Assembly: GCF_947305105.1 (NCBI RefSeq)
Contig: NZ_CAMZCS010000001.1
Location: 62,001 to 126,000 of the forward strand
Direction of reading: 5' to 3'
DNA: 64,000 nucleotides
DNA from: an uncultured Fibrobacter sp.
Lineage (GTDB): Bacteria; Fibrobacterota; Fibrobacteria; Fibrobacterales; Fibrobacteraceae
Shown here one piece after another: positions 34,675 to 40,600 of the stretch (positions are counted from its first letter, which is position 1; each line of letters starts with the position of its first letter). The translations under genes were made by a program, and so were the position numbers. The notes below the pieces were generated by a model. It searched no databases, was not told where the DNA came from, and was given only the letters and a program-made list of their open reading frames with translations.

Positions 34675-34699
34675 AAAAGCCCTGTCTTTGGGACAGGGC
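34675..34699 (-). terminator. Terminator of the Rpn-family gene
   Basis: GCCCTGTC (34679-34686) pairs with GACAGGGC (34692-34699). On the minus strand U-rich bases follow. The same hairpin, with a longer U-tract, ends the truncated copy at 40233-40258. Confidence 0.75.
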
Positions 34700-34713
34700 C
34701 GTGAACATACAAA

Positions 34714-34875
34714 TTACAGCTCGCGGATAGTCTTTTCCGAGAGACCTGTATAAGAGGCTATTTTCTGTATCGGTTCGTTTTGATCGCGCATTTTCTTCGC
34801 GATTTCTTCCGATTTTTTCATCGCTCCTACATACCTTGCCACAGCTTCGTCAAAGTCACTCATGTCTACTGTCAT
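34714..34875 (-). CDS. Internal 53-codon ORF at the 3' end of the Rpn gene
   Basis: In the same frame as the Rpn gene, ATG 34875 is preceded by GAGG (34882-34885) with a six-base spacer. Translation from it would give MTVDMSDFDEAVARYVG through to GLSEKTIREL. A TTGCAA-17-TAATTT pair (34915-34920 and 34892-34897) could be an internal promoter. The truncated copy at 40273 keeps this start region exactly. In E. coli, Rpn nucleases are described as being inhibited by a C-terminal product made inside the gene. A similar role here is inference. Confidence 0.35.
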   Translation of the reverse strand: MTVDMSDFDEAVARYVGAMKKSEEIAKKMRDQNEPIQKIASYTGLSEKTIREL

Positions 34876-35628
34876 AAGATACCTCGAACTGAAATTACAT
34901 AATTTCACCTCGTTTTGCAATAGCCTGAAGATGGGGTCGTTTGCAAATTCGCTGAAATCAGCATCGCGGTTCAAGGTGTCAATGGCACGGAGCCACTGGG
35001 CGAGGCGACTACTGTCCCCAACGAACCTTTGTGCTTTCTTGAAGAACTTTTCCACCTCAATCAGCGTGACTGTCTGCTTGTCAAAATACACCTGCTGTTC
35101 CTGGTTGCGTAGCTGCACCGTGTGGCGATAGTTCGCCGACTCAGGAAACGCGTCAAAGAACAGAAAGCTAATCACATTCAGGTTTTCAAGACGGGGCGTT
35201 TTCCCCTTCCTAGCCATGTTGCTTGTGAGGCGTGCCACGTAGAGGACCAGACGGTCTTTGAACAAGGATTTGTTATCCTCGTGCTGGACCTCGATGGAAA
35301 TGCGGTCCCGAGGCACATCGCCATCGCGGTCATTCGTCAAAAGGATGTCCGGTTCTACGTTGCGGTAGCCCAATTCCCCTGGGATGAACGGGTTGACAAG
35401 TTTTGGGTTCTCGATGCGTTCGGAGCCGATGAGGCCCAGGGCTGCGTTCACCAGGTCCGTCGTGAGCATGAGGTTCTTCTCGCTCGCGAGAATCTTCTTG
35501 ATGCAGCCGTCATTGTAGAAGTACACATTCCTATGCTCGTGTTTCTTGACGAATGTGTCTATATCTCCTCCGTTGTCGTTTATTTTCCTGAGTTCCTTGA
35601 GAAATTCGGCAAATTCTTCTCGAATCAT
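34714..35628 (-). CDS. Rpn/PD-(D/E)XK family nuclease
   Basis: A 304-residue protein of the Rpn (recombination-promoting nuclease)/PD-(D/E)XK transposase-like family. The N-terminal part has the nuclease layout: YNDGCIKKILASEKNLMLT, then EPDILLTNDRDGDV and ISIEVQHE, whose Asp and Glu-x-Gln fit the PD-(D/E)XK core. The C-terminal part is helical and ends in a GLSEKTIREL turn like a small HTH. ATG 35628 is the first good start. An earlier frame from 35673 reads through the inverted repeat. The last 53 codons form a separate internal ORF (34714-34875). Confidence 0.8.
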   Translation of the reverse strand: MIREEFAEFLKELRKINDNGGDIDTFVKKHEHRNVYFYNDGCIKKILASEKNLMLTTDLVNAALGLIGSERIENPKLVNPFIPGELGYRNVEPDILLTNDRDGDVPRDRISIEVQHEDNKSLFKDRLVLYVARLTSNMARKGKTPRLENLNVISFLFFDAFPESANYRHTVQLRNQEQQVYFDKQTVTLIEVEKFFKKAQRFVGDSSRLAQWLRAIDTLNRDADFSEFANDPIFRLLQNEVKLCNFSSRYLMTVDMSDFDEAVARYVGAMKKSEEIAKKMRDQNEPIQKIASYTGLSEKTIREL

Positions 35629-35660
35629 GTGTTTTTCCCTTGCCGGAACGCGCCGGTTCG

Positions 35661-35682
35661 CAGACGGGCTCATGCCCGTCTG
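35661..35682. repeat. Perfect 9-bp inverted repeat between rpn and lgt
   Basis: CAGACGGGC-TCAT-GCCCGTCTG. It lies between lgt (ending 35791) and the Rpn start, with no U-tract on either strand. The 35683-35790 remainder holds nothing recognisable. Confidence 0.6.
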
Positions 35683-35790
35683 TTCCTATAGACGTTTTTA
35701 CGGCGGTTTTTGTCCAGGGGAATGAAGAATTTTACTTGTCCGCGTTGCGGATGACGTCAATCATGTCCCTTACGGTGCGGCCCACGCCTC

Positions 35791-40232: not shown

Positions 40233-40258
40233 AAAAAGCCCTGTCTTTGGGACAGGGC
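40233..40258 (-). terminator. Terminator of the truncated Rpn copy
   Basis: GCCCTGTC pairs with GACAGGGC, with six U after it on the minus strand. It is a duplicate of 34675-34699. Confidence 0.85.
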
Positions 40259-40272
40259 GGTGAATATACAAA

Positions 40273-40434
40273 TTAAAGTTCGCGAATTGTCTTTTCTGAA
40301 AGGCCCGTGAACTCGATGATTTCCTCAATCGGCTTGTTCGCATCGCGCATTTTCTTCGCGATTTCTTCCGATTTTTTCATCGCCCCTACATACCTTGCCA
40401 CCGCTTCGTCATAGTCGCTCATGTCTACTGTCAT
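40273..40434 (-). CDS. Stand-alone 53-residue Rpn C-terminal ORF
   Basis: ATG 40434, preceded by GAGG six bases upstream, reads MTVDMSDYDEAVARYVG to GLSEKTIREL and ends in its own terminator. It is the same reading frame and start as the internal ORF at 34714-34875. If Rpn C-terminal products act as inhibitors, this copy would be a free-standing one. It could equally be a dead fragment. Confidence 0.4.
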   Translation of the reverse strand: MTVDMSDYDEAVARYVGAMKKSEEIAKKMRDANKPIEEIIEFTGLSEKTIREL

Positions 40435-40496
40435 AAGATACCTCGAACTGAAATTACATAATTTCACCTCGTTTTGCAATAGCTTGAAGATGGGGA
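40273..40496 (-). pseudogene. 5'-truncated copy of the Rpn-family gene
   Basis: The last ~74 codons of an Rpn gene are closely related to 34714-34937. Identity is near complete from the AAGATGGGG break (40496) down to the shared ATG, then diverges through the last 25 codons (RDANKPIEEIIEFTGL versus RDQNEPIQKIASYTGL). The nuclease domain is absent. What remains is the whole internal 53-codon ORF with 62 bases of upstream sequence and the terminator, so it may still be expressed. Confidence 0.7.
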
Positions 40497-40600
40497 AAAA
40501 ACTGTTCCAGCTGGCTACGAAGGTTGCCCGCAAGGCGGAAAAATGCTACCATTTCGAGATAGGGGACTCCGATACGAACACAAAATCAGGGTAGATTGCG
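40497..40600 (+). other. Junction sequence with a 34-codon fragment
   Basis: Right after the truncated Rpn copy, a plus-strand frame from ATG 40490 reads MGKKLFQLATKVARKAEK and ends at a TAG near 40594. It has no Shine-Dalgarno sequence and starts in Rpn sequence, so it is probably the 3' remnant of another gene brought in by rearrangement. Confidence 0.3.

Follow-up and report, generated by a model that had tools for sequence, protein, structure and literature searches.

An Rpn-family nuclease gene of Fibrobacter, rpnL, probably encodes a toxin and carries within it an antitoxin gene, rpnS, and a stand-alone copy of rpnS lying 5.5 kb away is probably a functional orphan left by a deletion; we assign this reading a probability of roughly 0.78. 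Both copies lie within the window (the whole 64,000-nucleotide stretch of Fibrobacter DNA that was analysed) and on one 339-kb contig. We propose that the last 53 codons of rpnL would also be expressed alone as the protein RpnS, via an internal promoter and ribosome-binding site, and that RpnS would use its long first helix to pair with the corresponding domain of RpnL, blocking the nuclease. The deletion would have taken the leader and nuclease part of a second gene and left the internal promoter, start, reading frame and terminator, such that the orphan would still make RpnS. The features of rpnL and of the gene inside it are as follows.

34714-35628, minus strand: rpnL, coding for a full-length Rpn-family PD-(D/E)XK nuclease of 304 amino acids (PF12784, TIGR01784, start set by homology)
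34678-34700, minus strand: intrinsic terminator of rpnL and rpnS, just after the stop codon
34714-34875, minus strand: putative rpnS, coding for the intragenic C-terminal product of 53 amino acids (profile match to RpnA-S, three predicted helices)
34882-34885, minus strand: GAGG, Shine-Dalgarno-like, six bases (TATCTT) before ATG 34875
34892-34897, minus strand: TAATTT, inferred -10 element, with TA..T retained in nearly all copies
34915-34920, minus strand: TTGCAA, inferred -35 element, with the TTG and CAA codons invariant in 26 + 13 genes

The product of rpnL matches PF12784 with E = 1.8e-23 and barely passes the cut-off of TIGR01784 (52.2 bits against 52.1), and the core residues D94 and E114 are found in the motifs DILL and IEVQ. 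The open reading frame extends to 35673 via an upstream ATG; homologues instead place the conserved start at ATG 35628 (MIREEF). The neighbours of rpnL are housekeeping genes, PADLOC returned a single weak match (PDC-M01A, E = 5e-4), and the literature we searched contained no report of Rpn in Fibrobacter. Some names given to such proteins ('PDDEXK transposase') would suggest an insertion sequence or autonomous transposon. We rejected this candidate, as the copies are without fixed ends: their upstream edges vary, and neither a target-site duplication nor a terminal inverted repeat was seen by eye in the comparison with the related Fibrobacter genome G022.

The internal start signals first noticed in rpnL were all recovered in place, comprising an ATG at 34875-34873 in the rpnL frame, GAGG at a spacing of six bases, and TTGCAA separated from TAATTT by 17 nt. 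A second in-frame ATG lies 12 nt downstream (34863-34861, codon 5) and would give an alternative product of 49 residues; codon 5 encodes the sole methionine conserved in 38 of 38 RpnS sequences. RpnS could therefore begin at the first or the second ATG and be 53 or 49 amino acids long. A scan for E. coli-type promoters, scored against the E. coli consensus, found none at either site, and the case for a promoter consequently rests on conservation.

A genus search over 80 genomes, with many of the compared genomes being metagenome assemblies, yielded 75 C-terminal matches and 64 distinct sequences around the start. Synonymous differences were measured at codons encoding the same residue, in 18-codon windows. 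Among 26 divergent full-length Fibrobacter genes of the rpnL clade (clade 1; 62-96% nucleotide identity), the synonymous difference was 0.146 at codons -18 to -1 relative to the internal ATG versus a gene average of 0.444, and 0 of 212 other upstream windows were as low (minimum 0.343; z = -6.9). Clade 2, with 13 genes, gave 0.172 versus 0.403, with no window among 212 reaching that level (z = -4.6). By this measure the trough before the internal ATG is more than chance, and it points to selection on the putative inner promoter and start of rpnS. Five codons are without variation in clade 1, namely TTG (-15), CAA (-14), AAA (-10), AGT (-5) and AGG (-3), and the codons between them do vary. TTG and CAA also show no variation in clade 2, and across the 64 distinct copies the TTG-CAA pair is invariant except in two with CGC for CAA and in one tandem duplicate (at locus L045). 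The expectation that ATG and GAGG would be conserved beyond their flanking codons held in the clade of the window gene and for the upstream pair, but not for GAGG in the SARYM clade (clade 2), where the ATG is shifted upstream by one codon, AGA or GGA often takes the place of AGG, and the Shine-Dalgarno sequence is often lost. GAGG is fixed only in the SSRYLM clade; a TTGAGG variant retains it, and one TCTAGG sequence loses its first G. On the promoter reading, transcription would begin some 10 nt ahead of the ATG, which could allow near-leaderless initiation in clade 2.

One may postulate that the conservation before ATG 34875 instead marks a zone of recombination or gene conversion for the exchange of C-terminal modules, or a DNA-binding site, in either case without a promoter. 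C-terminal modules have been swapped between nuclease domains and exchange could homogenise the flank; moreover, a 16-bp palindrome, GAAATTATGTAATTTC, lies in the conserved region. Homogenisation is, however, at odds with the pattern of invariant codons adjoining codons with 0.2-0.5 synonymous difference in the same 18-codon stretch. Several copies have a disrupted palindrome but intact TTGCAA and TA..T, for which reason we rejected the palindrome as an operator, and in two species a near-identical sequence occurs between genes, ahead of a lipoprotein gene. We consider this alternative unlikely, and an inner promoter under selection remains our preferred reading of the conserved stretch.

The protein itself is homologous to a known antitoxin. 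A profile built from 38 RpnS sequences of Fibrobacter has E. coli RpnA-S (PDB 7TH0_A) as its top match in the PDB (E = 1.1e-8). The predicted RpnS model (pLDDT 71) has helices at residues 6-31, 36-43 and 47-52, the first of them long, and 7TH0 is its best whole-length fold match (TM 0.72/0.82), at a Foldseek E value that is not significant. Four residues at RpnS positions 17-20 are present or absent among the 38 sequences; this indel is of the kind and in the place described for four-residue repeats, which are reported to start 8-20 residues after the RpnS start and of which an added one abolishes recognition (Zhong et al. 2023, PMC10327210). The initial suggestion that this locus is a Fibrobacter version of the E. 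coli Rpn system is thus supported by homology of the 53-residue product to RpnA-S, with the inhibitor role presumably carried over from the work on E. coli and C. difficile (PMC10327210). RpnS might alternatively be made yet act as a DNA-binding subunit or autoregulator with a helix-turn-helix, comparable to Cas11d inside cas10d. The 53-residue sequence does give weak helix-turn-helix matches, and its last 25 residues, the part concerned, are the swapped and variable module; against this, the homologous E. coli RpnA-S directly inhibits RpnA-L both in vitro and in cells (PMC10327210), and the two functions may in any case coexist. We regard regulation of this kind as quite improbable and favour an inhibitor that would act on RpnL.

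The stand-alone copy and its surroundings comprise the following.

40273-40434, minus strand: stand-alone rpnS (putative orphan antitoxin gene), 53 amino acids, with a C-terminal module of type DANKPIEEIIEFTGLSEKTIREL
40441-40444, minus strand: GAGG of the stand-alone rpnS
40451-40456, minus strand: TAATTT, inferred -10 element of the stand-alone rpnS
40474-40479, minus strand: TTGCAA, inferred -35 element of the stand-alone rpnS
40238-40258, minus strand: intrinsic terminator of the stand-alone rpnS, just after the stop
40495-40498: deletion scar; about 793 bp (leader and nuclease part) lie between the joined sequences in G022

The first-pass annotation had described a stand-alone reading frame with a terminator and a start region identical to that in rpnL; frame and terminator are both there, and the start region is nearly rather than fully identical, with 2 of 62 nt differing upstream of the ATGs. 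The close match over the start region, with differences mainly in the last 25 codons, was confirmed: codons 1-28 of the two copies differ at 4 nt and one amino acid (F8Y), versus 24 of 78 nt over the last 25 codons and stop.

The neighbourhood in G022 is colinear with the window and has, where the window carries the stand-alone copy, a full-length rpn gene whose RpnS and terminator are the same. This site, the fabF site, carries full-length rpn in two other species (G022 and G013), the orphan in the window, and no rpn in G052, G021 and G012; the lgt-pmbA site, where rpnL lies in the window, is empty in G022, G013 and G012. Positions 128-760 of the G022 locus (L083) match 41130-40498 and position 1554 onward matches 40495 downward, with a short shared CCCC(A)TC at the junction. 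Given a full-length gene at the fabF site and an empty lgt-pmbA site, the stand-alone copy is most simply read as an internal deletion of a resident full-length gene, and rpnL at 34714 as a later arrival than the gene at the fabF site.

Truncated copies of this kind are not confined to the window. Three further N-truncated pieces occur in the same genome (C1:23887, C34:21587 and a short remnant at C23:47940), and N-truncated rpn copies are numerous in the genus. In the shortest orphans, homology to rpn sets in 50-72 nt ahead of the ATG, immediately upstream of the -35 box, and none of these truncations cuts into the promoter apart from the L045 tandem duplicate; several of the listed junctions are orthologous or shared, and the independent events are fewer than the list. 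Three groups of orphans lie at orthologous places in two to three species, with flanks 82-96% identical. Pooled, they show 7 synonymous changes at 119 sites versus 2 nonsynonymous at 469 (Fisher p = 3e-4; pN/pS of about 0.07, from a test that rests on 9 changes), and 0-1 change per 50 promoter bases. These sister orphans therefore appear to be under purifying selection, which answers an early concern that stand-alone copies might be variably decayed: promoter and frame are retained. The comparisons suggest that the toxin part can be lost and that the antitoxin part is retained; with toxin and antitoxin arranged in this way, loss would have to remove the toxin first, and an orphan rpnS may guard against sister or incoming Rpn genes.

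It could nevertheless be that the stand-alone copy in the window is an inert relic, that is, a deletion chanced to leave the end of a gene that is neither needed nor kept. The copy did arise by deletion, no orthologous stand-alone copy was found for its site among the compared genomes, three related genomes are without rpn there, and some remnants elsewhere are broken, such as a frameshifted fragment at L085. Truncated copies nonetheless nearly always retain the RpnS frame and promoter, and the three sister groups show purifying selection; the order of loss, toxin first, would account for the direction of the deletion but not for the low pN/pS. We consider a relic possible though doubtful, and continue to favour a functional orphan.

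Several loci show further arrangements of these pieces. At L085 (3832-5318; G078:C8) a full-length rpn is flanked by several C-terminal fragments, some frameshifted, forming an array of RpnS remnants that begin at the same promoter. At L045 (1261-1665; G069:C12) a second RpnS frame directly follows rpn and begins 17 nt before the internal ATG; this tandem antitoxin duplicate is without a -35 box and would need co-transcription. Just upstream of the orphan rpnS at L093, L095, L098, L097 and L103, two sites have the same junction, in which an interspersed repeat (GTCATCCCCGCGGAGGCGGGGATCTCCTTA...) joins the orphan 5 nt ahead of the -35 box, a sign that cassette and repeat may have moved together. 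The sequence closely resembling the rpnS promoter ahead of a lipoprotein gene (L276, about 1219, and L277, about 1199; G013:C11 and G022:C93) stands without RpnS coding sequence and may be either a re-used relic or a product of convergence.

The last 26 residues of RpnS fall into few types that are freely combined with nuclease domains. Agreement between L085 and L089 is 94% in the nuclease part and 54% in the tail, between L083 and L100 it is 78% and 96%, respectively, and the overall rank correlation between nuclease and tail similarity is 0.29. The window's rpnL and its orphan likewise have different tails and nearly the same first helix. RpnS proteins of E. coli are specific to their own RpnL, with RpnA-S failing to block RpnB (PMC10327210), and the orphan might on that account not recognise the window's RpnL. 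The first helices are the same but for F8Y, however, and the number of four-residue units is equal; if the first helix sets pairing as in E. coli, the orphan should neutralise the RpnL of the window.

Upstream of rpnL lies a conserved element with two hairpins.

35624-35695, minus strand: putative structured 5′ leader of rpnL (covariation; covariance model E = 4.7e-12)
35690-35685, minus strand: TATA box of the leader
35682-35661, minus strand: hairpin 1
35656-35643, minus strand: hairpin 2

A purine-rich stretch lies between the hairpins and ATG 35628. Across 32 sequences, 88.6% of cells pair, compared with 80.6% in shuffles and 32-59% in slid controls, and 42 cells changed on both sides versus 14.9 expected. 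G-U pairs are frequent, which favours an RNA over a DNA palindrome; a DNA operator is less likely. With the covariance model, 67 of 80 genomes from the genus have a match to the leader; in a phylum-wide search at E<=0.001, 2 of 41 genera do. An Rfam scan of 31-43 kb of the window gave chance-level matches only, and the literature we searched contained no Fibrobacter structured RNA. We rejected the idea that the leader is specific to rpn: the genes after 39 leader matches outside the window's subfamily, other Rpn subfamilies among them, are PDDEXK_2 (17), Transposase_31 (9), the toxin BrnT (7) and unassigned (6), and single cases precede genes for the nuclease YhcG and the antitoxin RelB. We treat it as a candidate new structured RNA, and our guess is that it could provide shared translational control of toxin genes. 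At one locus (L168, L173 and L174; G000:C8:41376-42948) three leaders occur in succession; a divergent Rpn gene follows the first, and Rpn-like frames that are shorter or truncated follow the other two.

The gene-within-gene principle and the separate rpnS are already described: in E. coli the internal start, internal transcription start site, inhibition and separate rpnS were shown experimentally, and the known RpnL/RpnS pairs comprise E. coli rpnA-E, plasmid rpnP2 and one rpn gene of C. difficile (Zhong et al. 2023, PMC10327210). The Fibrobacter genes resemble those of E. coli and C. difficile in their PD-(D/E)XK nuclease, internal start, C-terminal three-helix domain, four-residue variation of the first helix, extra separate rpnS genes, and their gain or loss from strain to strain with no defined ends. 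They differ in sequence, RpnL barely reaching the TIGR01784 cut-off, and in that the orphans are scattered at unrelated sites, not just downstream of the parent, and add module swapping, the two-hairpin leader and measured synonymous constraint. E. coli YpaA (a separate RpnE-S) and stand-alone DUF4351 proteins are alike in being a free-standing RpnS outside the toxin gene; ypaA, however, lies directly downstream of rpnE, whereas the Fibrobacter orphan is 5.5 kb off, at an older insertion site from which the parent part was deleted. Orphan immunity genes of polymorphic toxins (CdiI, Rhs orphan modules) are left behind as toxin tips are exchanged and protect against sister toxins. Fibrobacter rpn differs from these in that a single coding sequence serves as toxin tip and as antitoxin, and in that the orphan has brought along its putative promoter from within the toxin gene. 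New here are the constraint on the putative internal promoter, the repeated antitoxin-only truncation, the module swapping and the shared leader.

A broader proposal, which we advance tentatively and think somewhat doubtful, is that Fibrobacter holds a repertoire of orphan rpnS genes, repeatedly made by deletion down to the inner promoter, that would protect against resident and incoming Rpn toxins with swapped C-terminal modules, and that in Fibrobacter and one related genus a single class of leader would set RpnL synthesis and co-control many toxin and nuclease genes including BrnT, RelB and YhcG. The findings extend gene-within-gene toxin-antitoxin systems to another phylum and add evolutionary evidence for selection acting on the putative inner promoter. 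The leader common to Rpn, BrnT, RelB and YhcG genes, with no match in Rfam, is a candidate new structured RNA, and the orphans make it testable how orphan antitoxins arise, with the toxin lost first and the cut falling near the inner promoter, and what maintains them.
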